This document shows positions 1,491 through 23,700 of a stretch of 64,000 bases of DNA, one piece after another. A program made the position numbers and the translations under genes. The notes under the pieces are model-generated. The model was not told the origin of the DNA. It searched no databases and saw only the letters and a list, made by a program, of their open reading frames with translations. The DNA lies in contig OZ034967.1 in assembly GCA_964030785.1 (NCBI GenBank), positions 65,048,742-65,112,741 on the forward strand, read 5' to 3'. This DNA is from Siderastrea siderea (Eukaryota; Cnidaria; Anthozoa; Scleractinia; Rhizangiidae). Every line of letters starts with the position of its first letter. Position 1 is the stretch's first letter.

Positions 1491-4400
1491 TTGTTTAACT
1501 TAATACCCAAACATTTATCTGAGATCAACTTCCCCACAGGTGTATACAAGAAGTACAAGGATTATTTCACAATTCCCTACTTCATCTTTGTTCGAGATAC
1601 GCTGACCTACCTGGCCGTCCTGGCAATGCACTTAGCGATATGTGTTCAGTCTTCACATATTTCTTTCAGTGGTCTAGAGTGGGTGATTTTGGTTTTTCTT
1701 TTGGGGCGTTTTTTCAATGAAGTGAAGCAAATCATAGACATGGCGCGAAAACAGACCGCGGACAAGGAGAAATTGACACTGGGGGATTACATCAGGTACA
1801 TACCCTTTCAATTGTTTTTTTTCCTTTCTTTGTTCTTTCCTTCTTTCCTTCGTTCCTTCGTTTCTTCGTTCCTTCGTTCCTTCCTTCCTTCGTTCGTTCG
1901 TTCGTTCGTTCGTTCGTTCGTTCGTTCGTTCCTTCCTTCCTTCCTTCCTTCCTTCCTTCCTTCCTTCCTTCCTTCCTTTCTTCCTTCCATCCATCTTTCC
2001 TTCCTTCCTTCCCTCCTTCCTTCGTTCCTTCCTTCTTTCCTTCTTTCTTTCACTTATTCGTCTATTTGTTTAGTTATTTGCTTGCTTGTTTTTTTTTCGT
2101 CTTAAGAGTGTCGGTTAGTTAGTTACTCGGTTAGTCAGCTAGTCGGTTGGTTGGTTGGTTGATTCAGTTCTGAATATGCCTGCAAAAGGGTCTGTTATGC
2201 TTAGGATCTCAATTCATTTTTGTATTTTTAAAAGCTTTAAAGAAATTAGATGTTATGTAATGGATAAGAAGCCATATAGGAATAATGTTGCTTTAATGAT
2301 TTGGAAATTAAAATCTCATTAACCTTTTTCATTTCTTACAGGGATCGTTGGAACATTTTCGACATCGCTATTCTCGTAACCTATTTTACTGCGATATTAC
2401 CACTGAGAATATTCACGTGGGTAGTTTCAGAATCAGCAGCGTACAACCGTGTTCTGGTGTTTGCTGGTTATCTTTATGGCCTCAACACGATGTTTCTTAC
2501 TTTTAGGGCTTTTGGTTCTATTTTGGAGACCTATAGAGGGGTTGGTACCATTCAAATCGCCTTGTTTCACATCATAAGAGACGCAGTGGTAGTGGTATTT
2601 CATTTTGCTGCAATCACTTTGGCTTTTTCAAGCGCAATAGCTAAGATATTTGTGGCCGAAACTTCAATGGTTAAAGGAGAAATCTCCAGCAAGAAACCGT
2701 AAGTTTAAGAACTTGTTTTGCTTTTGTTCTTGTTTTTTTCTTGACCCTTTAAGCCGCGGCTACACGAGCGATTTTTTGCTTGCGATGGTGATGCGATTTT
2801 TTGGAAAATTGTCGCGTCGCCAGCGCGCGGAAAATCGCATGTGTAGCCACCCTCGCACAGGTGATGCGACAGATGAAAAAATCGTAGAAAAAAATCGCGA
2901 GAAATTCAATGAGCTTAATTTTTTGTGACAAAATCACGGTCTTTGTCAGAGGGTGGCTACACTTGCAATTTTCGCCGCGCGCTGGCGACGCGACAATTTC
3001 AAAAAAATCGCATCACCATCGCAAACAAAAAATCGCTCGTGTAGCCACGCCTTTAAGCCCTAATAGTGACCAGCATCAAATTTCTAGTTGTAATATCACT
3101 GCTTAATCAGTCAGAGAGGATACGATCATCCAATGTGAACTCTTTTGATTTTTAACAACTTCTCCCTACTACTACTATAGTAAATTTATGAGGACAAAAA
3201 AGGAGAATTTCTATTTTGATATTAGGGGGTAAAGGGTTAAAGGTAAAATATGCAAAATGTCATGAGCGCAAGATAAAGAAAACATCTGAGTCTGACAGGA
3301 ATCAAACCCATGACCTTCTGTGCACGGGTAGAGCGCTCTAAGCACTGAGCTACTGTGAGACTCGTGGCGAGCGAAAGGTGGTGACACGCGTCCTGTATAC
3401 TGCTAGAAACAGTAACGTCAAAGGGGCCCTGTGGGTTGATAAAGAAAGAAAGATGGTTAAGTTTTAAGCTCGATTATAAAAATAAGAAAGATGTAGTATT
3501 CGTCGTGCCACGGGCGTGGGACAAATCTGAGTTGCTGAAGGGAATCGGAACCATGACCTCCCGTACACATGTCGGGTGCTCTAACCTATGAACTACTGGG
3601 GGACGCGGGGTGAGAGAGGTCTTATTTACTACGTTCATTGTGACAAGCGTCCTGGATAGGTAAGAAAGATGTAATATTCACCACGAGTCACAAGAGTGGG
3701 ACAAAGAAAAAAAAAACAAGACAAGATGAAAGTAAAAACTGATCGTTGGGACGTTAGGAAATAACACCAATCGACATAATTTCTGATACTCGGTATCTGC
3801 TGGGTCTTTTGGTATAATTTGCAATAGTCATAGTAAGGGACTAAACCCTAAAACCTGGGTGAGGTTTGGTGATTCCTGAATTTTCATCTTTCGCATGCGT
3901 AACTCCCCCTCATCGTCCATATTTGGCCACACTGATGTACAATGTTTAAATGTTGCTGAATGATGTTGAATGGTTTAGCCCTGAACAGAGTTTGACTGCC
4001 ACCAACATTCGTACAATAAAGTTGTATTCAACAATGTTGGATGACGTTGAATCCAAGGTCTCAGTGTCGAACAGTGTGTAATATTGTCTAATTACAAACT
4101 CAAACCACTATATCACGACTGGTTACCGTTCGCTAAAACTTTAAAAATTTGCTGCATCAAGTCTCTTTCTTGTTTAAGACAAGAATTCGACAAAAGTGAT
4201 CAATTTAAACATTTCTAATTAATAGCTGCTTTAAAAAAATCGTATATTATAAATTAGCAGCACGTCAGAGAAGTCTAGGTCAAGTTGCGTATATTTCCTA
4301 GGGAACTTGTAGCTTTTCACTGGTGTACTGCGGGCTTGCGAAAGCCGAAAATCCAGGACACAAGAAACGTCACTTAGAGCTTAGCCGCTTACGTAGGGTA

Positions 4401-7400
4401 GGGCTATGGGCGTCTGGGTAGCAGGGCTAAATTTGCAATTATTTTCTTGGTGTAGACAGTGTATTTCTCTACCAAACTTGGCAAGTTAGTATGGAATAAT
4501 GTGCCAAACAGTTTACAAGTTTGACGTCTTACCTGATGACGTCGTCTGTATCATTTTACGGTTTCGTCCTTGCTTTTGATTACTTTTGAGTCAATTTTGA
4601 CTCAATTTTTTGTACAAACAACAACAACAATAGCAAAACAGTTGTACTTGCATTTAGTGGTTCGGTAACAAACTAGAGTCCTCAAGCAAACTAGGGTGCA
4701 TTTGGTAGCAAACTAGAGTCTTCTCAGGGAACTTATCAGAACACTCCTATTGTTATGATGAACCAGCTGTCAAGCCTTGTATTAAAAAATATACATCTGT
4801 CTCTTGTTTCAGTGTGTGTGACACAACCGGGGTAAATTGGTGAGTTTTGTAAACGTTGCTTGTCACTTTTCTTTCCCAGCTACTAGTAACAAATCTTATC
4901 TGTACAGTAGGCTATTTAGCAGTTATCCTTTAATGATTGTTAGCCAAAGTATAGGGTTATTAAAATAACAAGCCCATTGCTACCGTCTTCCTATTGAGGC
5001 TGCGGAGAATACTTTAGCCTCATTAGTAAGCATTTAGCGAAACAGAATGTACGATTGGCAATGACTGATGTGTGCCACACGGAAAATATTTTAGTGAAAA
5101 GTTATTTCCTAGAATATTGTTTTTGCGTCAGAAGGTGGACGTGTGTAAGAAAATAACACGGGACATATTTCTCGTGTCCCTAATCTTATTGAGCTGTGGG
5201 TGTGCTGCGTTGCAGAGGTCTCCCCCTCAATATAACCCATAACTTTAACTAAACTTTTTGGCCAATCTTTTTTTCTTACAACAATCACCCTCCCACACAC
5301 CAAAGCTCCCCTCACCCATTGATTATAATCACTGGAGACTTAGGAATCCATTTTCTGGGATTCCATAAACCAGCACCTGACAGGCCACAAAGGTTGCTAG
5401 AATAACTACTGATTTAATTTTTATCTAAACAACGAAATGACAAACTAGAGATTTAATGTAGCTTCATGGTATTGTGTTACATAGACAATTGACATTGACA
5501 CGTTCACTCCTTTATAAGATAATAACTTCCAACAAAACTCAAAATCACAAAATCTCGAAGAACACAGTACATGTGCATTAAATAAAAACATATCTATCGT
5601 AACATCATGACTTCTCAAAACAATAAGATAATTAGAAAATTTATTTTTCTATTTTTATTTCTTTTAGTTGGGGGAAGATAGCAAAAAAGCTGGGCTGGTC
5701 TTTGCTGGATTTATCAAAAGAGCTCGATTTCTTCAATTCAGTTGATTCTTTCACAGCAACTTTTTCACGTCTTTTATATGCTGCTTATCTAGTCGTGGCA
5801 CTAATCCTTCTCATCAACATGCTCATTGCGTTGCTCTCCAACACGTACCAGTGTGTGCAGGTAAGTGTTCCCTCTGAAGGCTATGGGGGAGGGGCTGGGA
5901 TCATTATAATTACATACATACTTATTTGACTGATAAAGACGATCAGCGAGTTGTCCGACAAAAAATTTCTTACATTATTCAATCATATACAGTGGGTTAA
6001 TTTTCTTCAAAACTTCTGAGATGTAAGAAGTTGCTAGCGAAATTTATATTTATGCAGTTCTAAGTGTATTTTACGTGGAAAAGAAAATGCGAACTTCGAA
6101 TGAAAAAATCACCTATTTTGTTTAAGGTTAGGATAACACACTTCTGAAAAAAAAAACCAAAAAACACCTACACTACAAGAGATATCCTAAAAGTCCATTT
6201 AAGAAATAGTTTTCTTTTTTTCCAGGATAATTCGCGAAATGAGTGGGCGTTCCACAAAGCCATTACAATTCAGACTTATCGTGACTATCACCCCATTCCT
6301 GTTCCTTTTAATATTATCTCTACTATCGCTATGGAGGTATATGGGCTCCTAAAGACTGAGAAAGCGGATAAAACTCCAGAGTCACAAGATTATCACGTAT
6401 ATGTAAGTTGTTGGTATTGTAATTTATATTTTCAGCCCTTGCGTACCAAATATTAGTCAAAACGCTTCGTGCGATGCAATATTCTCCAACTAAAACTGGG
6501 GTAGCCGGGTTTCGCATTGGCATGTTCAGCAGTTCTAATTGATATGTAAATCGTTCGACAGAATAAAATCAACTGTTTGAGAAATATAAAATGAGGTGAA
6601 ATCGAGTAATCGCATCACGAGTTTATAATTCTGTATTATATTCTACATACTCACGAGACTGCGATAAGATAGGTGGAAATTGAACAAAATCTTTACAAAT
6701 ATTTACAAGTGAAAACATATTTAATTAATTTAAGTGAAAAAAAAAATAATTAATTAATGCTCGGGAGAGAAAGCGTATTCTCTCTAGGTCCCAGTCCACT
6801 GTTTAGCCTTTGTGTGAGACACTTAACGTTCTTGGAATCGCTCTGTCGTAAAAAGGAGATTTCAGTTCAGTCCTTATCTAAAACAAGGGTGCTAGCTACA
6901 AAAGTCACAACTGGACTCTCCCTTTATACATAAAAGTTATTACTCTTTCTTTAATAGGATCAATCCTGATCACTAATGAGGCTTAATTGATTTCATGTTT
7001 CCTTCTTCACATTCAAGCTGAACACGAGGTATCTTCTGGATACGTATAGGCTCAAGTACGGGGATTTCTTTCCTCCCACAAGTACGTATCTGTTAAAAAT
7101 CATATACTTAAACTTCATCATGGAAGGAATCTTACTTTGAAGGGCATATCCGATATCATAAGTATTTCGTCTGTTCGGAGGCATCATTTCTTAAGTTACC
7201 CAGAAAGTATTTGTTCAATTTTTTGTCTCTGAGAGAATTGTTCCGCTGAGAAATGATCACTTTGACAAACGCAATTTAAGTTGAATGCGAATCACCAGTT
7301 AAATCCAGTCACATTTCTCATTTAGATAAACAACCACAAGACACTCCTTTCAAATGGTGCATATATAATCGGTTACAAAAAGCGGAAGGCACCAAGGGAA

Positions 7401-8925
7401 TACTTAATCGGAAACAAGAAGCGCCGCTTCGTTTTCTTCGACCTTCCCATGATCCCTTGCGCCTCTGGAGGATCCCGCGTAGAAAAAGAAGTGACCAGGT
7501 GACTGGGTACGAAGTAGGGAAATGCTAGGCTAAACAACCACTCGCCAACTGATTCTCGGTATTAACAGTGAACATTCGGAAATTTCCATAAAAAACGTCG
7601 ATCTTACCCCTCGCCTAGAGTAGAGAATCCCTTGACACTTTTAAAGAGTTACTTTTGCTAAATTTGGTAATCTTCAGCTACTGAAAAAACTGCTAAACAA
7701 CAAAGGCAATAGGAGCAAAATGATTGAACAAAGACAATTGAAAACAAAGTTTTCCAGTAATAATTAGTCCCATACGGAGTGTTCTTTCGTGATCTTTTCA
7801 AAGTTGCCAAGTTGCTCTTCCAACGTAACGCACAGGTATCGCGGAGGTCATAGACTCAAATCTCACTGTAGCCTTGATTTTCATTTTCAGGCTAAAAAAG
7901 CAATTACTAATATTGCCAAACGTTGCGAAGATCGTTCCACTCATTTCATACTATTACTGCAGTTCTTCCAATATTCATTACGCCACCACCAGAAGCTGAA
8001 CACCTAGGTGATAAGCTTCTGATCACCACCTACCGTGTTGTTGTACGAGGGGAGCCATGTATTGGAATGTAAATTTCCGATGAAAATTACTTCCTTACAT
8101 GCAGTCACTCTTATTTCATGTAAGTTTTAAGCAGTCTTATCCATTGCAAATCACTTCTTTGTCCTGTTGCGACAAAAATTTCCTCCTCTAGCCACTGTGA
8201 CTTCTGCATTAGCAGACAAGGCGACGAGAGGGGAGAAGCTTTGTTGATGTTTGAGCGTTTTATAAAAACACCTTACACTTTGACTGTCTAGTTACATGTA
8301 AATCTAGTTTGTTTTACAATTTTGTTGAAAGCAATCGGATTCATCTTGACTGCGACAGTGCATAATCATATCTTCCGGTATGAATGAAACAAACAAACAA
8401 AGCGTTTGTAAATTGACCGCGAAACACCCCGTTACAAGTCACAAGACCCTTCTACGAACAACATCAATTGTGCAAGTGAATTTTCGTCCTTTATTGTTTA
8501 TTACTTTTTTACTGTACGGAAAGGTGAATAGGTTTCTAATTTTTGCAACAAATTTGATTAATTGCATGACAAAATACGTATGATATGGGCTTTGCACAGT
8601 GTTTCACGACACACGCTAATCCAAATAATACTGAACAGCATAGAATGACATATGTCTGATGTTAATAATTTCCACAGATAAACTCGACCAGGTGCTTAAC
8701 GACACAGGGAATACTGCAAGCATGGTGAACCAGGTTCTTTACAGAAGCTTCAAAAATCAACAAGGCCGTGATAAAGCTCTCCTACCAACTGGTCCAGAGG
8801 TACAGGTCATTGAAGTGGATTTTAGAAATGACTTCACCAGATTCTTGGGAAATAGACCTTATGGCTATCCATGTGCTAAAAATTTTAAACCAATGACTGA
8901 TCGTTTGATTGATTCTTCCGCTTGA
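1491..8925 (+). CDS. TRP-family cation channel, membrane/pore region and C-terminus (6 exons)
   Basis: Exons read by hand: 1491-1795, 2342-2698, 5668-5860, 6226-6402, 7018-7081 and 8678-8925. All have GT-AG introns and matching phases, and they sum to 1344 nt, that is 447 residues plus a stop. Exon 1 gives an S1-S2-like part ending with EWVILVFLLGRFFNEVKQI. Exon 2 has the DRWNIFDIAILV segment and S4-S5. Exon 3 carries a pore-like LGWSLLDL, then S6 with LINMLIALLSNTYQ. Exon 4 continues with NEWAFHKAITIQTYRDYH and PVPFNII, like the region after S6 in TRPC and TRPM channels. TRP channels are tetrameric cation channels of the plasma membrane. Ankyrin or other N-terminal parts are not in the window. 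TRPC versus TRPM type cannot be decided by eye. The weakest boundary is the acceptor of exon 1, which has a poor pyrimidine tract. The last exon ends at TGA just before a GATT microsatellite. Confidence 0.8.
1815..2060. repeat. TTCC/TTCG tetranucleotide microsatellite
   Basis: A long mixed run of TTCC, TTCG and TTTC units lies in the first TRP intron, starting about 20 bases after the splice donor. It is translated in several frames as apparent protein (KERKE or PSFLPS runs), none of which should be taken as genes. Confidence 0.95.
2754..3049. mobile_element. Foldback MITE with ~100-bp TIRs and 8-bp TSD (hAT-like)
   Basis: The left end starts CCGCGGCTACACGAGCGATT. The right end, read on the other strand, starts CGTGGCTACACGAGCGATT, and the match continues for about 100 bases on each side. 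The 8-bp direct repeat CCTTTAAG flanks the element at 2746-2753 and 3050-3057. An 8-bp target duplication with long TIRs and no ORF fits a non-autonomous hAT-type element, although the terminal bases are not diagnostic. It lies in the second TRP intron. Confidence 0.85.
3235..3425 (-). mobile_element. tRNA-derived SINE copy (minus strand)
   Basis: On the minus strand the sequence has a tRNA-like A box (AGTAGCTCAGTGCTTAGAGC) and B box (GGGTTTGATTCC). The head contains GGACGCGTGTCACCAC and GCTCGCCACGAGTCTC, and the tail runs toward CGCTCATGACATTTTGC. The same arrangement occurs on the plus strand at about 10650-10850. The tRNA fold is degenerate, so this is a retroposed SINE and not a working tRNA. 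Confidence 0.6.
3480..3690 (-). mobile_element. Second, more degenerate tRNA-derived SINE (minus strand)
   Basis: A B-box-like sequence (minus strand of GGAATCGGAACCATGACC) and an A-box remnant near 3590 lie within a stretch resembling the neighbouring SINE. The copy is divergent and partly duplicated at its downstream end, where a second CACGAGTC-like stretch occurs near 3682. Confidence 0.4.
3700..5660. other. TRP intron 2, remainder, no gene seen
   Basis: This part of the large intron has no coding signal that I can support. It holds AT-rich unique-looking DNA and scattered repeat-like stretches, for example around 3900-4080 where TGTTGAATGATGTTG-type words recur. Confidence 0.5.
7326..7498 (+). 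other. Possible alternative TRP C-terminal exon
   Basis: This stretch is bounded by an AG (7324-7325) and a GT (7499-7500). It starts in the same phase as the last TRP exon (both begin with the bases AT AAA after a phase-1 exon) and is open for 57 codons, ending in a basic segment (RIPRRKRSDQ). Joined in phase it would run into a possible terminal exon at 7891-8007 that ends in TAG. No family match is recognised, so it may simply be intron. Confidence 0.25.
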
Positions 8926-14700: not shown

Positions 14701-17700
14701 ATTTTTTGAAGTAAAGATCAATTTCGTGTAATTTTATTGACTTTCATCACTTCTTGATCAATTTTGGTGGTTTTGAAGGTTTTGGAAACTTCAAGAAATC
14801 CAAAATGGCGGATCCAAGATGGCCACCATTTCAGAACAAAACATTATTGTGACGTCATATGACGTCATCAGTTGATGTTGCGGACCTCAATGGAAACATT
14901 TTTCGACGTACTATCTGTCCTTTAAGTTTCTTTGTCATAGCTTTAGTATTCTCGGAGTTAAGAGGTGGGGGCGGAATCCGCCCCCCCCTCCCCCCCGGTC
15001 TCACAAGACCAAAAAAAGCCCGGTCTGAATAGGGTTAAGTTAATTGTGGGAGAAAATCCGCTTATTTGATATAATATTTTCGAAACTTTGTCTGCAAGTG
15101 ACGGGCCCTTGAAGTTTGTTTGTGTATTAGAAGCAATTAAAGTCACATCATATGGAATGTAATCTTAATTTTCGCCCTTAGAAAAAATATCAAGCAAGTT
15201 ACTGGTAGAGATTTTGAAAGCGGTTAACGCTTTGGCAACCTCGATTTGGGTTTGTCAAAATAGGGATTTTGTAATTTTAACAAAAGATAAAGAAAACACC
15301 ACGAGACGAGAGCTTGATTAACAGTAAAGAAAAAAAAGTGGAGTTAGGGTTTATAAATTTTAGTCAGGTACACAGGAGCCCAAAATCTGATACCCACGGG
15401 CATTTTTGTCTGATTTTTGGTAACATAGCTATTTTTACTAACTCGAGTACGCTGATTTCGAAAATCATTGTCACCAAGCTCAATTCTTGTGTTAAGATGG
15501 TGTTTTGGGGGCATTTAATTATGACGTCATTGTCAAAATAAGGAGTTTTCTTTCCTGTATCAATTTTAAGTTTAATAGATCCAGAAATTCTTTCAAAGCG
15601 TTTTTGGCGTACTGTAAAGATGATTCTAAGAATTTGTGACAGTTTTTACGTTGTTTCTATGAATATCGAGCCGTCACGTGACAATTGACCACGCCCTCTT
15701 ATATGAAATTCACCTTATTAGTTGCAAAAGTTGCAATTGAAATTAGAAAGAAAAATGTTCTCGTCATGCCACGCTGAAGCTACGGGCTAGCGAGCATCAA
15801 GAACGACGTCGTGACAATGTCCAGATATCGAGTTTTCCATTTTTTCAACTTCATAGTAGGAAAATGGAGATAACATCATCGTTGTTATACTTGGAGATAA
15901 AACTTTATTGTTTGCCTTGTATATTGCAGAATCTAAGCCATTTCACAATGTACTTTGTCTGTCACTGGCTCATAGTGGTGACTTTGGTTGAATTCATGTA
16001 AAATTAACGAAATCAAATTGACAGGACGTTGCTCCTTACTTTTAGGTTTAAATCTGTCTTTAATATTGTTAATCATTGTAAATATTACTAATAAATCTAC
16101 TAAACTCTTTCAAAAACACTGAACTAATATTGCTTTCTATACAAGCGTCTTAAATGCGTTTTAGAGCAGGTTGATTCACCAATTAGCGTCGGTCTTGGTG
16201 CATCCACACAGCCCAGTGCACACGACATGCGACTTTCTGCATTTACAGCGAAGAGTTGCGCATCCAGTGGAGCATCGAAACCATCTCCAAACAAGCCTTT
16301 GGGATTGGATCTAGTGTCATAAATACAGGGACCAGTAGTTCTGCTAGCGTCCAGTCTGTCTCTTCTGGGTTTGGAAGCACTGGTTTCTGAATGCGCGGCT
16401 GGCCCCACACCGAGGTTTGGTAGTGTCGTCTCTCCAAGTGTTGCTTGAACGCATCGCTAGTCGGTGGTAGCTTTTCTGGGCTACTGATGTTGCCAAGTAG
16501 CACGACACAAACCAAGTCAAATGAGTCCTCCGATGTCTTATACATTCGACAAGCAAACCTTTCTCCGGATGCGATGGTGTCAGGATCGAGGACGTCTTCA
16601 CCCACCGAGGAGAGAAGATCAAAGTGCTCTGTGAAAACCGTCCACGCAGTCCTCTTTAAATGGCCACAGATCAGTGAATGAGGTGCTGTGACAGCCGGCG
16701 CCGGTGATGGCGTGAAATTTTAACAATGCACTTGAGGAGTTACGAGGAAGATTTGCTGAGACCTCCCCCTAAGGTATGTACTTTGGCTTCTTTGAAGTTC
16801 CTGCCCATGTCCACACCTTTGATGAGAGCTTAGCGCGATGCGCCAGCAGAAGTAACTAACAGCAAGCCTGTGTCTCGAGCGGAAACGACGTTGTCGACAT
16901 GCCCGACTTCATGAAGAACAAACCTCGTATCAGCTTCTTTGTGGCTGGATCTCAGAACGGCTGCATCAAGGCTAGGATCCGAGCAGAGAACATCCTCTTC
17001 GTTTGAACAACCGCCAGATACTACCATGTAGTGTCAGCAGGTGCTTGCACGATACGTTAGGCTGAGAAAAACCGTGCTAAGTCGCCTTTGTTGTCTCCTA
17101 CTGCCAGAAATGCTTGCCGCTGATGGCGTGCGTGCGATAATGATAGAAAAACACGTCGATCCTCTGGCATCCAAAACTTTTCCGAAACACAGCGTCCACG
17201 TGGCAGTCCGCAAAGCCACGGAAAGTCTTTGCTTTTTCTGGTTTTCCAATAGCTGCGACCAGAGCAAAGTCATCGATGAACAAAGCAGCATTTCCTTTAA
17301 CTGTAACTGACTCCGGGCGCTTGAACTTTTCTATCAGAACGTCTGCAGAAATAGACTTGTTTCCTGTCCGCATAGTGTGATTCATTTCTGCATTAGCGCA
17401 TGCTGGAATATGGCTTGCATGTTTACCTCGCGCCTGGCTTCATAAGCTGTCACTAGACGACATAGTATACTCCGGTCGGCATGCAGAATCTTTGTCTTCT
17501 CGGAGCTACAATCTTGGACGGAACTGTTGAGACACTTTCTTCCTAAAGTGAAAAATAATCAGTGACTCGGTCATCCGCTTGATTTCAAGCCCCCCCCTCC
17601 TCCTAATCAATGTTGTCAAGGCACTGGGAAATGTATGGTTGCAAAGGCAAACTCACAAATCAACACTGAATAGAGGGAGGGGGGGGGGGGTCGTAAATAA

Positions 17701-20700
17701 ATTTGTATGTTGTTTGAAACAAATGAGTTAAATGAGGGGATAATTTTGGTACTGAGCAGTGTGTCTCAACTAGTTTCGTCCAAGATTGTGTGAAGTGGTT
17801 TTTGCAGAAAATCTCTGTTATATTTAGTGAAATAATCTTGCAAGACCTCGTGTAATTTTTAATGATTGTCCTTTATATGTAAAAGTAGGGACACATTCAA
17901 TTAGCCATTCGTTCCCGAAATTAGAGCAATTATTCATTAGTCATAGACACCCCTCTTACAATTAGCACCCAACTGCTGTCGTCTAAAACTATCACAATGG
18001 TTTTTACGGGCGCTATCGACCCTAAAAGACGAGCCTATATCGCATTTTTGACAAGAGATAAGAGAGTCAGGACGATGGATATCGTGAAAAGGTGTAAAGT
18101 ATCGCGGGCGACAGTTTACCGTATGAAAAACGACATCGGTTGGGCCAAGCAGAAGAACATGAACGAAGGCAAGGGCGGACGCCCAAAGAAGCTGAGTGAG
18201 TGCGATGAAAGGAAATTACTTCGTACTTTAAACCTTCTTAGAAAAGAGGAAGGACAGTTTTCGTCTTCCAGACTTATGGAACGTGCAGGCCTACTAACAA
18301 ATGTAGTGAGTAATTGCACTATTCGCCGTTTTTTAAACAAGGAAGGCTATAACTATTTGCAAGCACGAAAGAAAGGATTTATGTCCGACGATGATCTGAA
18401 AAAGCGCGTTGAATTTGCAAAACACATTCAGAAAACCTATTCATCTGACGTATGGACTGAAAGAGTCGCATTTTATTTGGACGGGGTTAGTTTTTTATCA
18501 TAAAACTAATCCCGCAGATCAGGCTCGAGCGCCGAAAGGACGCGTATGGAGAAAGACGTGCGAGGGGTTAAAGCAAGGATGCACAGCAAAAGGAAGTAAA
18601 GAGGGTAGTGGGAGAAGAGTTGTCATTTGTCAGTGACAAATTTGATGGTATGTTCGCTAAAGCCGACAAGAATGATTCCAGACTGTTCATTCAAGATAAC
18701 GCACCTAATCAGAACTCAGCGCTTGTGCGTAGAATGTTGCGAATAAAGAGGGCGAAGTAGCTTTTTATACCAAGTCGTAGTGCCGACATAAATTGCATTG
18801 AAAATTTCTTCCATCTCGTAAAAAGGGAGGTAAGAAAGCAGGCGCTAGAATTAAATATCACCCACGAGACATTCGAAGAATTCGCGACACGCGTAATTAG
18901 AACAATGTACAACTTTCCCGTAGAAAAGGTAAACAAAATCATAGAGACAATGGACGGTCGTATGGATGCCATAATTGAAGGAAAAGGGCAACGTTTAAAA
19001 TATTGATACTATATTTGAATGTAAAGATCTGTAAAACTTAAAGTGGATGATAACAAAACGTTCTTTTAAACTACAAGAAATGTCACGTTAATGAACTCCG
19101 TGTCACGCATAAGGCTAAGTGTGACCTATGTCGAGCTGTTACGTAATAAAATACATTTGAAAGGTGGAAAATGCGTCTTTTTGAATCCATATCTCTCCTT
19201 CTGTAGTTGAAAAGAATAACACAATAATGACCATTCTAGATATTTACACGATTAAAAGGGCGAATGATATCATTTTCAACGATTAACAACGATTAACACT
19301 CCATTATAAAGAGTAACAAAGATCATCTATTCTTTTCATACGCCGTCTAAAAGCTCTGTTAATCGTTGTTTTTTTCCACAGTTGCCTTAAATTTGCAAAG
19401 TTAATCGTCAAAAAACAAATTACAAGTTTGTTTATCCTATAATAAGCTCGGAAAAACAGCGTGAACATGAGGGGATTTCCCGTTGTCGTTCCCTAGGGAT
19501 CTGATAATTAAAATGGAAAATTCGCCAGCGGACAGTCATCATTTCTGTCTCGCGTTCATCTACTACGCCGTTTTTAATGTAAATAAGTGGATGTTTTCCT
19601 GTGCAAAAGATAGGGGTATCCGCAGTAAAGGTTATGTCTCTCGCAAAATGTGTTTTTGGTGCGGCTAAATGTACAGCGTGACCTTTGAGTAGTAGAAGCA
19701 AGTCATGCCAGGGTATGAGCTGAGGAGACCACCTAAAATCATTTAAAAAGATACACTCCGCACTTTCCACCCCTATCCAAGCAAAGCTTCCTGACGCTGG
19801 ATTACAAAAGGTATGATACATCTCTGTCAGTGGATTGAGAAGAATTGTTTTACCACAGTTCGCAGCGCCAACTATCATAATGTTCCTGTACTTTCCTCGT
19901 CCTTTCGTGAGGAGATCAGTCACGGCTTCGCTGAAAATACCCACAGGTACCCCATTGTTGTGCAGGATTTCTCTTGCGCAGGACAACCACTCTCCATTGC
20001 AACCAAGTACGCAATCCCGCTCCCTAGCTTCTCGCAAAATATCCATGCTGCTTTTCATTGCACGGTTTAGTTTTTCCTGTGCGGCCTCTATTTCCCATGC
20101 AGAGTTCAAAATGTCTGCTACTGCTCTTGGAATACGTGTTAGGAGAAATTCAGCGAGATCTGTTTTTCCTTCTTCTTTCTGTTCAAATGCCAAGGCTTGA
20201 AGCTCAGTCGAAGTTTTGATGTTTCTTTTTACAATAATTCCTGACACTTCAAAAGCAGACAATCACTTTTTTTTTCCTTTTGCCGGGACTCGACTTGGAC
20301 TTTGATACCGCTTCATCTTCTTCATCTTCTAAACCACTTTCCTCTCCGTCTTCTATCGGAAGTGATCTTTTGGGAATACGTTGACGCCTTCTTCTGCTCG
20401 CAGAACTTGTTTTGGGTTCACTTTTGTCGCCAAGATATGGATGGTTGGCGCTTTCCTTGTAATCAGGGTCAGATTTTGTGACATAACGCCAAGCGCTATA
20501 GTTGTGATGCTTATTAGAAAAGTGCACTGAGATCCCGTATTCCCTCTGTAGAAATTCTCTGGCAGACAGCCAGCGTTGATTTCTATCGAGTTTAAGAGCT
20601 AGGTGGTAATGGTCGCCTGAGTTTTTATGTTGTTCTCGGCAACAACACCACTGCAAAACCTGTGCTTTGCCTCGCGAGAACGATGCCAAAACCGCTAACG

Positions 20701-23700
20701 CAAAATCTTCACGCCAGGAAAACTTCACAATGTCTACTTGGCTATATGTGACCAAATACACACTACGTACGTCTTTAGCAGCAAGAGAATCGTCAATTGA
20801 ACTGCTCGTCGTTTCTTCTGAGCTTGAGTCGTCACTACAATAGTTTTTTAGTAGCTCCATAAATACACACCTCTACAAACATCAAACGCACGCACCACTT
20901 ACAGTGGCGACGCGACGCGCACACTGTTTTCATGGTTACAGGGTAACCATGAAAAAAATTTGCCTCGCAAAAAACATTATTTTCAGAGAATCAGCTATTC
21001 CAATCTATTACCTATGTAAGACTCGACGGCTACAAACTAGACCCGCGACATCATCTTAAAATAGTAATCCTTTTTATAGAAATCTTTAAAAAAGCATCCA
21101 ACACAATCTTGGACGGAACTGTTGAGACACTTTCTTCCTAAAGTGAAAAATAATCAGTGACTCAGTCATCCGCTGGATTTCAAGGCCCCCCTCCCCCTAA
21201 TCAATGTTGTCAGGGCACTGGGAAATGTATGGTTGCAAAGGCAAACTCACAAATCAACATTGAATAGGGGGAGGGGGGGGGTCGTAAATAAATTTGCATG
21301 TTGTTTGAAACAAATGAGTTAAATGAGGGGATAATTTTGGTACTGAGCAATGTGTCTCAACTAGTTTTGTCCAAGATTGTAGTTGCAGCACTTTTAACTT
21401 CATAAAGGTTGGTTAATGTAGGCGGATTATTCTTGGGAATAGGGTCCAGGAAGTTTTCCTCCACCCCTTCTTCCCGTTCCCGTTCTTCTTCTTCACAGCC
21501 TGCAGATAGCAGCCTCCGTTCCACTAATCTTTCAAGCTGGGTCTGTCTCCAAGAACGAGCTTGGACGAGAGACTGTTCAATTTCTGGAGTCGTAAGATCT
21601 TTTGTGGCAATGTTCTGCAGTTCCCATTTGTCTGTGACGAGAACACCCTAAATTTTTGTGTGGAATGTAGAGCATTCTCAGCTTCATTATCTTGCTTCTG
21701 TCTCTCCTTGGCACTCTCGTTGTGGATCAAGCGGTCGTCGTGGTGTATGTCAAACATCGCTGATGTTTGCACAGCAATGTGGGAACGCAGGTTGTGGGAT
21801 AAAGCCCATCTGCTAACCGCTGTGGGTGTCTTTGTATACCAACAATGCCGCCACCGTTCTTTCCAGTCGCACTCCGCTTCTAATTCAGGCGTTTTCACAT
21901 TGGAATTTAATATTATTTTTAATCTCCAAAACAATAAAAAAAATTCCAACGGGAAAATGCGACAGCAATATGCGTACCCTTTAAATAAGTCCACCCTTTG
22001 TCTTTTCATTAGTTTTCACCTTTAAATTAGCCGTAAAAAGTTTTTATCTTAGCTTGATTAGGGTTGGCACGGGAAGGTTTTCCAACTACCAAGAATTCGT
22101 GCTATTGACTATATTGAAAGGGTTGCATGTTTTCAATTGCAACTTTTATTAAAACAAAAATCACATTCGATTTTAAAAAATGTCAAAGTTATACCCGTGA
22201 TAAGGTGAGTTTTATACGAGAGGGCGTGGTCAATTGTCACGCATGACGGCTCGATATTCATAGAAACAGCGTCAAAACTGTCACAAATTCTTAGAATCAT
22301 CTTTACAGTACACTAATAACGCTTTGAGAGAATTTCTGGATCTATTAAACTTAAAATTGATACAGGAAAGAAAACTCCTTATTTGGACAATGACGTCATA
22401 ATTAAATGCCCCCAAACACCATCTTAACCCAAGAATTGAGCTTGGCAACAATGATTTTCGAAATCAGCGTACTCGAGTTAGTAAAAATAGCTATGTTGCC
22501 AAAAATTAGACAAAAATGCCCGTGGGTATCACATTTTGGGCCCCTGTGTTCCTGACTATTTCTACCGCTAAACTTACCCTATTTTCAGACCGCTCAAAGA
22601 AAGCGAATGTAGCAAGACTCCTCTTTACCGACGCCTCTCTGTATTAGGGACAGTTAGCTTAGTCCGAAAGAGAACAAAATTCATATAAGTGCCACCACGC
22701 CTTGGCCGAGTTGTATAGGCTCCCAAGCGAACTTATTCTAGTGTTCTTTAATGGTGAAATTTTAGCATGCGAAAGCGGAAAAACAAAGACTAAGCAAACA
22801 CTTCCAGGACGTGACCCGTTCGAAAAAAATGAAATGAAGAGAACGCACTAAATTTCTTTCTCAAAGACAGTTTTTTGGTAAACAAGTTGTCAGCAACATT
22901 TCCTTCTAGTGTTTAAGTGTTTCTGCAGGTTTTCATATTAACAAAGTGAGTGACTGTATGCAAATAGGCTAAGTCTTTCTAATCTTAACTTGTTGCCTAT
23001 CATTTCATCTTAAAATATGAGCGCTCAAGTTAACAATCAGCGCGCGAGAATTCGCTCAGTTATTGTAAAATATGTTTCCTCATATAGGCGCTACTGCAGC
23101 CCGTCGAGGTGATGTGATTAGATGCACCGTTCTGTTTGATCATGAGAAAGAGAGAGATGGGAAATTCCAAGTGCCAGTTGTGTTTAGCGTGAACGGGAGT
23201 AGGATTGTTCCAGAAGGAGAGCAGACAATTATTGAATACAGCTCCCACAGAAAGCTCTACCCTTACATTGCTTTTAGATACGAAAATAGCGTGCTAGCCA
23301 AGGTAATTAACCATTAGACTTTATATTTGCTGCCTTTCTTGTTTGTTCTTTTTTTAAAGCGGAGCCTGCGGGCAAAGCCCGCCAGCGGAGCTCCATTGCT
23401 AAGGAAATTTGGTAACCTATCAAGCCGAGAAATTTTGGTTGTGACGTAATAGTCACGTGACCGTACGTCCGTACATCCGTACGTCCGTCCGCAAGACTCT
23501 GGGAGGGGGAGGGGAGTGCCAAGTCAACCCGACGGCGGTAGAGAATGTCATCTTTTCTCGGCTGGAAATCGTGCGGTGCTTTTGGGCAACCCGCGTTTTT
23601 CTTGGCGGGAAATCGCATGACCATCGTCGCTTTTGAAAAAGAGGTTTCTTTAAAAGCTTGAGCTTCTTAAGCATTTAACGATTGTTCGAGAGTACTGAAG

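Follow-up and report, generated by a model that had tools for sequence, protein, structure and literature searches.

Cut-and-paste transposons make no copies of themselves, and how replicons of the single-stranded DNA type enter genomes and spread in them is debated. A locus in the coral Siderastrea siderea raises the question whether both modes of life can be combined in one element. In the 64,000-nucleotide stretch that was analysed (assembly GCA_964030785.1, contig OZ034967.1, positions 65,048,742 to 65,112,741; hereafter the window), positions 17509-21379 form a single TA-flanked unit with a transposase gene of the Tc1 type on the plus strand and, on the minus strand, a gene for Rep, a protein with an HUH nuclease and a superfamily 3 (SF3) helicase domain, both genes being decayed. 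The presence of these two functions in one TA-flanked unit, proposed in a preliminary description of the window, is supported by relatives with open genes. The explanation towards which we lean is that of a eukaryotic transposon-replicon with two enzymes, in which Rep would copy a circle and the transposase would paste the stretch between two terminal repeats, from arm to arm.

The genome from which the window originates (831 Mb, 402 contigs) was scanned for further copies; only the best candidates were scored, and the counts are lower bounds. The scans yielded at least 88 Rep hits, at least 108 transposase hits and, with another Rep query, at least 89 Rep hits. A convergent transposase lies no more than 1.5 kb from 72 of the 88 scored Rep hits, in 64 of these cases at a distance of 396-397 bp, and 86 of the 88 Rep hits contain no stop codon. 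Copies that always carry one gene alone, which according to the preliminary description would have spoken against a joint element, are thus not what the genome contains: both genes are found together again and again, oriented alike and with the same arms. Fifteen of the 16 unpaired Rep hits are units of an array at C1:19.56 Mb, and the single unit read from this array has a transposase with one frame break. At C6:50.47 Mb (locus L017), the transposase (375 amino acids) and Rep (518 amino acids) each occupy one open frame in convergent orientation, flanked by two direct arms of 266 bp that are 100% identical. This unit measures 4.0 kb and holds no third ATG-started open reading frame (ORF) longer than 74 amino acids, hence no capsid gene.

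The general plan of the units can be written as TA-[arm]-transposase(+)-iterons-Rep(-)-[arm]-TA, with both arms in the same direction. In the window it takes the following form:

17507-17508, no strand: left TA target-site dinucleotide, TA being present at both outer ends
17509-17788, plus strand: left arm, 280 bp, direct repeat of the right arm, with terminal inverted repeat CAATCTTGGACG.../...CCAAGATTG
17997-18503, plus strand: remnant of the Tc1-type transposase, N-terminal part (HTH_Tnp_Tc3_2, 35.1 bits, cut-off 31.5)
18472-18624, plus strand: transposase remnant, middle piece, in a different frame
18602-19003, plus strand: transposase remnant, C-terminal part, DDE_3-like, below cut-off
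19273-19414, no strand: inverted iterons ACGATTAAC, two per strand, in an origin-like stem between the 3' ends of both genes
19432-20262, minus strand: C-terminal part of Rep with the SF3 helicase domain, second reading frame
20249-20860, minus strand: N-terminal part of Rep with the HUH nuclease (HYH motif, YxxK motif), first reading frame
20927-20955, no strand: short hairpin upstream of the Rep start, arms GGTTAC/GTAACC (z -4.48)
21104-21379, plus strand: right arm, 276 bp, in the orientation of the left arm
21380-21381, no strand: right TA target-site dinucleotide

To judge from its reading frames, the window copy is a dead member of the family with both genes broken. Its transposase has a frame break and lacks a middle piece. 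Where a pair of Rep genes had been described, there is a single Rep gene that is spread over two frames: in relatives where this gene is open, Rep is one ORF of 473-518 amino acids, both window frames align to consecutive stretches of one such ORF, and two separate genes are ruled out in favour of a single broken one. The arms of the window unit are direct repeats with 95% identity over 282 columns, each starting with CAATCTTGGACG and closing with a near-perfect reverse complement of it, which gives every arm a terminal inverted repeat of its own. By its sequence, each arm looks like a small transposon, comparable to a miniature inverted-repeat transposable element (MITE). TA is found outside the outer ends only, the inner ends reading CA[arm]TG, and excision of the unit with one TA leaves a minus-strand frame open across the join (KSAAT/SSEKTK). 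The earlier proposal that the TA-flanked unit moved as a whole stands on these last two points, and has to be amended in that its arms are direct repeats. No other locus matched the whole window unit among the 40 best of 282 genome candidates that were scored; a second family with the same two genes surfaced in that search. The short hairpin at 20927-20955 is absent from the repeat list of L017. A remnant of Rep and arm, 95-97% like the window copy, is present at positions 3520-4974 of locus L009 (C4:54.18 Mb); it is interrupted by about 1.45 kb of other sequence, and no transposase half was seen there.

The nature of the two proteins was derived from alignments, profile searches and fold comparison. 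DDE_3 and HTH_Tnp_Tc3_2 were recognized in all 18 aligned transposase members (E<=0.01), the L017 protein scoring above both cut-offs and having the catalytic spacing DD34E (D174, D273, E308), and Sleeping Beauty was found with the transposase in a search of the Protein Data Bank (PDB; E 2.9e-14). In Rep, the residues H101, H103 and Y144 and Walker-type residues are invariant over 34 members, which possess a single YxxK motif; we read these as the HUH and Walker motifs, and likewise the transposase triad as a DDE motif. Pfam matches of these 34 Rep members are weak (E<=0.01): 22 match REP_ORF2-G2P, 14 match Parvo_NS1 and nine match PPV_E1_C. The Rep profile gave no credible sequence match in the PDB, the best having an E of 0.25. 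An AlphaFold model of Rep (mean pLDDT 80.6, pTM 0.54) had Rep68 of adeno-associated virus 2 (AAV2) as its best fold match in the PDB (E 7.4e-13), the helicase domain alone reached a TM-score of about 0.6 against its targets, and parvovirus NS1 proteins topped the results in a viral structure library, with papillomavirus E1 among the first ten. The assignment as Rep is thus made because motifs, weak Pfam matches and fold agree. The phage protein collection PHROGs returned no family for three proteins. Between the Rep proteins of different lineages dN is 0.23-0.58 (seven comparisons), and dS was not computable, the NG86 method returning no value; this accords with saturation and with prolonged selection on the proteins. 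A Helitron identity was considered and ruled out by the SF3-type fold, the single YxxK motif and ends that do not fit.

Arms were read in three lineages, those of the window, of L017 and of a third group represented on C4, and in each of them direct arms carry both transposon ends. The arm sequences differ between these lineages, and what is shared is a plan: a terminal inverted repeat starting with CAAT, a GTTGAGACA block (GTTGAAACA in the third lineage), a C-rich stretch, then CAATGTTG, after which comes nearly its reverse complement, and lastly a G-rich stretch. Identical 2-bp flanks were found at 12 of the 13 single two-armed elements that were read at both ends (10 TA, one CA, one TC), and two of the three arrays read at both ends, at C12:31.0 Mb and C1:19.56 Mb, have TA on either side. 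Solo arms have matching flanks at 10 of 13 loci (nine TA, one TG), the other three having degraded ends; two of the solo matches (L022a and L022b) share one flank, and two of the 13 loci are abutted pairs. The two solo arms of L022, at positions 2122-2395 and 7253-7524, lie 5.1 kb apart with near-identical flanks, and they are a segmental duplication, not two insertions.

In the third lineage, five single loci have their arms at a spacing of 3703-3706 bp; at a sixth locus the spacing is 4614 bp. The inner ends of its element at C4:3.1 Mb read TATA[arm]TATA, and TA on the outside only is therefore no rule for the whole family. Two arms abut with nothing between them at three places, all in one lineage: C3:75.03, C13:36.19 and the right side of the C4 element. 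The resulting order of the C4:3.1 Mb element, arm-inside-arm-arm, fits what would be expected if the stretch had been cut from a concatemer that originated in an end-joined circle. Seven arm matches (87-90% identity) are scattered on one strand over 43 kb at C4:58641069-58683785 with irregular spacing; this cluster may be the decayed remains of an old array.

Head-to-tail arrays of 8 to about 50 copies occur at four places, with units of mostly 3705-3823 bp; they were read in parts, and assembly errors in them are possible. The largest, at C12:25.484-25.671 Mb, has about 50 units by length and at least 42 Rep hits; those at C12:31.0 Mb (nine hits, period 3740) and C1:19.56 Mb (15 hits, period mostly 3705) are smaller, as is the one on C313 (eight Rep hits, period 3742), which was read in its interior. 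The nine units at C12:31.0 Mb are identical over a 3260-bp core and the eight units on C313 show variation at one site; between single copies and the C12:31.0 Mb array, as between the single copies themselves, there are 1-13 differing sites. Such uniformity within arrays fits what one template, copied many times quickly, would leave. The largest array lies inside a satellite with a short period of about 10 bp, of the TGTATAGC type (positions 5500-5758 of L013 and 7867-8200 of L015), and its target site is therefore blurred. Arrays with a period of mostly 2450 bp, in which a shortened transposase contains a stop, are found at C12:20561625-20581943 (eight hits) and C3:24505884-24518342 (six hits); among the hits listed for both there is no Rep, and they may consist of defective units whose amplification took place in trans.

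Inverted short repeats with a loop of 41-59 nt stand between the genes or beside Rep at four loci. These iterons are of the type ACGRKTWAC. L017 has ACGAGTAAC, three per strand; the window copy has ACGATTAAC and the array at C1:19.56 Mb ACGGGTTAC; next to the Rep of L012 there are variants, ACGGTTAAC among them. Four of the 11 occurrences of the pattern in the 64-kb window are at the stem, an enrichment that is descriptive, the pattern having been written post hoc. The stem of L017 folds far better than shuffled sequences (z -11.6), that of the window modestly better (z -2.97; 2 of 200 shuffles were equally good). The inverted iterons are origin-like and a putative target of Rep. An inverted, arm-like core of C-rich and G-rich sequence adjoins the iterons of the Rep copy in L012 (positions 3269-3392), which suggests that this copy is a deletion derivative.

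From the gene pair, arms, flanks, arrays and abutted arms, all of which can be read in the genome, we infer a circle, a rolling-circle step and activity of both enzymes. Circles, containing either a single arm or a pair of abutted arms, would arise when arms recombine or ends are joined. Rep would bind the iterons at the end of its gene, nick there with its HUH nuclease and, with its SF3 helicase, drive rolling-circle replication to head-to-tail concatemers. The DD34E transposase would then make one cut at the outer left end of an arm and the other at the outer right end of any arm further along, and would paste the excised arm-to-arm stretch, mostly at TA. Monomers and multimers would be equally legal transposons because every complete arm holds both ends. 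Arrays might in addition grow or shrink in place through exchange between arms, and loss of the unit inside would leave TA-flanked solo arms. The preliminary suggestion that the element could be replicated in circular form and inserted as a transposon keeps its conditional status, and is fitted by the head-to-tail arrays, the shared and abutted arms and the conserved iterons. It is a serious possibility, to be held tentatively, that these elements form a new eukaryotic class alternating between rolling-circle replicon and DDE transposon, in which Rep-made concatemers of any length can be transposed. Such an element would multiply without depending on host replication of the donor site and would seed satellite-like arrays. 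The family also offers a tangible path by which a transposon could give rise to long tandem satellite arrays. Since both enzymes are retained and young copies have open genes, a link between transposon and virus becomes testable in a living animal.

Several observations weigh against a transposon-replicon of this kind. No free circle was seen, an exact 22-bp abutted junction was not found for the L017 lineage, and none of 38 pattern matches in IMG/VR was confirmed as a relative. The flanks do not match at one single element (C1:18.98 Mb, AT/TA), nor at the C12:25.5 Mb array inside its short satellite (TA/TG). The sixteenth unpaired Rep, in L012, has no transposase in the 8 kb that were read. 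In the pairing scan 36 of the 108 transposase hits had no Rep partner; two of these gain a Rep with the second Rep query, another two are located in two-armed elements, two more belong to the big arrays as units, 14 are part of the 2450-bp arrays and 16 are others. The whole-chain TM-score of Rep against Rep68 is low (0.35-0.37). Finally, in a stretch from the middle of the C12:25.5 Mb array (L026) about 106 bp are missing, one transposon end among them, whereas the units at both ends of this array are complete; at least this array therefore seems to have grown in place.

Growth in place is also what would be expected if the family were a plain cut-and-paste Tc1 element with a captured Rep as passenger or helper, and if arrays were formed solely by unequal exchange between arms after insertion. 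Direct arms suit such exchange, the secondary deletion shared by the mid-array units of C12:25.5 Mb is explained by it, and single insertions with a TA duplication are the product of a Tc1 transposase. We nevertheless regard this as unlikely, though worth keeping in mind. A mere passenger hardly accounts for the lack of stop codons in 86 of 88 Rep hits, for Reps of different lineages that can still be aligned with dS beyond reach, or for inverted iterons that recur at the same place. The four arrays of long units, in two lineages, are in our judgement, made without a control, hard to obtain by exchange alone, and the arm-inside-arm-arm copy and the three abutted arm pairs suggest an end-joining step. 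Another way to dispense with transposition of whole units is a circular Rep replicon that gains entry to chromosomes where it recombines homologously with solo arms already resident, the arms alone being moved by the transposase, as MITEs. A one-arm circle recombining into a solo arm would yield TA-arm-inside-arm-TA with no duplication at the inner ends, and matching flanks at 10 of the 13 solo arms read agree with arms that move. Elements with arms 98-100% identical to the query arm were, however, found at five different TA sites, each of which would need a fresh solo arm; moreover, the transposase gene is kept together with Rep, and solo arms are equally explicable as loss products, like solo long terminal repeats. 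This makes the proposal quite improbable.

The virus-like features of Rep, its fold and its matches to Parvo_NS1 and PPV_E1_C, may also indicate an endogenised parvovirus-like or CRESS-like (circular Rep-encoding single-stranded DNA virus) replicon from which the capsid gene was lost and which acquired a transposase from elsewhere. With no further ORF of notable length in the L017 unit and no confirmed relative in IMG/VR, we consider it doubtful; this reading concerns the origin of the family more than its mode of life, and is compatible with a transposon-replicon. That two MITE copies came to surround unrelated transposase and Rep debris by chance deserves hardly any credence: the arms are MITE-like, solo copies exist and no second match to the whole window unit was scored, but other lineages have the same two genes, with open frames, in the same orientation and with the same arms. 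A one-off composite of MITEs is refuted by this recurrence, with 72 of 88 Rep hits paired.

Among known systems are the DD34E/Tc1 elements of the Tc1/mariner superfamily, with which the coral family shares the transposase domains, the DD34E spacing, short terminal inverted repeats and a mostly TA duplication. It differs in adding Rep, origin-like iterons, long two-ended direct arms and head-to-tail arrays, and in its occasional CA, TC or TG duplications. The transposase is not the sole gene, given the 72 of 88 Rep hits that are convergent with one, and the coral family is thus no plain member but works like Tc1/mariner plus an extra module. Helitrons resemble it in having an HUH nuclease and a helicase in a eukaryotic mobile element; Helitrons are not known to carry a DDE transposase or to make a target duplication. 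As to Parvoviridae and CRESS-DNA viruses, the ORFs of the L017 unit include no capsid gene. Helitrons are moreover described, in the portion of the source consulted, as having a helicase of superfamily 1 (Pif1-type) and two tyrosines (PMC6213432).

The closest published precedent dates from 2011 and likewise unites a Rep-like gene with transposase genes in one element that has terminal inverted repeats (TIRs): in the account consulted, a decayed transposon from the truffle Tuber melanosporum carries an ORF for a geminivirus-like Rep and two ORFs for transposases and has TIRs of 37 bp, the ORFs being interrupted or truncated and no target duplication being obvious (Liu et al. 2011, PMC3198968). 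Direct arms, arrays and an origin are not described in that account, and the comparison is one of descriptions, not of sequences. The same excerpt mentions parvovirus-like repeats, namely DENSOV_HM of Hydra, PIVE of a planarian and an acorn worm element, which are similar in that a parvovirus-type Rep is repeated in animal genomes and for which, again compared by description, it mentions no transposase (PMC3198968). Teratorn, a piggyBac-herpesvirus element, is presented in the relevant part of a review as the first fusion of a cut-and-paste transposon and a DNA virus, with a proposed origin from a rolling-circle concatemer plus transposition (PMC10175614). The likeness lies in a cut-and-paste transposase joined to a DNA-virus replicon; Teratorn differs by its 180 kb, its piggyBac transposase and its herpesvirus genome (PMC10175614). 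We found no published account of a Tc1 transposase and a parvovirus-type Rep with two-ended direct arms and arrays, Repbase and most subscription journals being outside the scope of the search. The preliminary view that the element belonged to no class that could be named has to be qualified in view of the truffle element (PMC3198968). There is a fair chance that the coral family deserves a class of its own.

Relatives of both proteins occur beyond this genome. None of 27 pattern matches in the prokaryote species genomes of GTDB was confirmed as a relative; public protein collections contain at least 933 Rep relatives, the Rep search being limited to 7998 candidates, and at least 660 transposase relatives. 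For the 120 Rep relatives listed, two organisms are named, the corals Acropora millepora and Porites evermanni. With 120 clusters listed for each protein, the longest contig is of unit size (3.4-4.3 kb) in 28 Rep and 27 transposase clusters, which fits circles and equally collapsed repeats. With a third search included, nine longest-contig sizes are common to the Rep and transposase lists (shifted controls: mean 2.3, maximum 7), and five shared sizes exceed 4250 bp (shifted controls: 0.08 on average, at most 1). Distances between Rep proteins and between transposases correlate with r 0.40 in seven size-matched pairs (185 of 5040 permutations) and r 0.45 in 10 pairs (137 of 20000); after post hoc removal of one apparently mismatched pair, r is 0.70 (10 of 20000). 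The shared contig sizes make it very probable that the pairing of Rep and transposase exists in other assemblies too.

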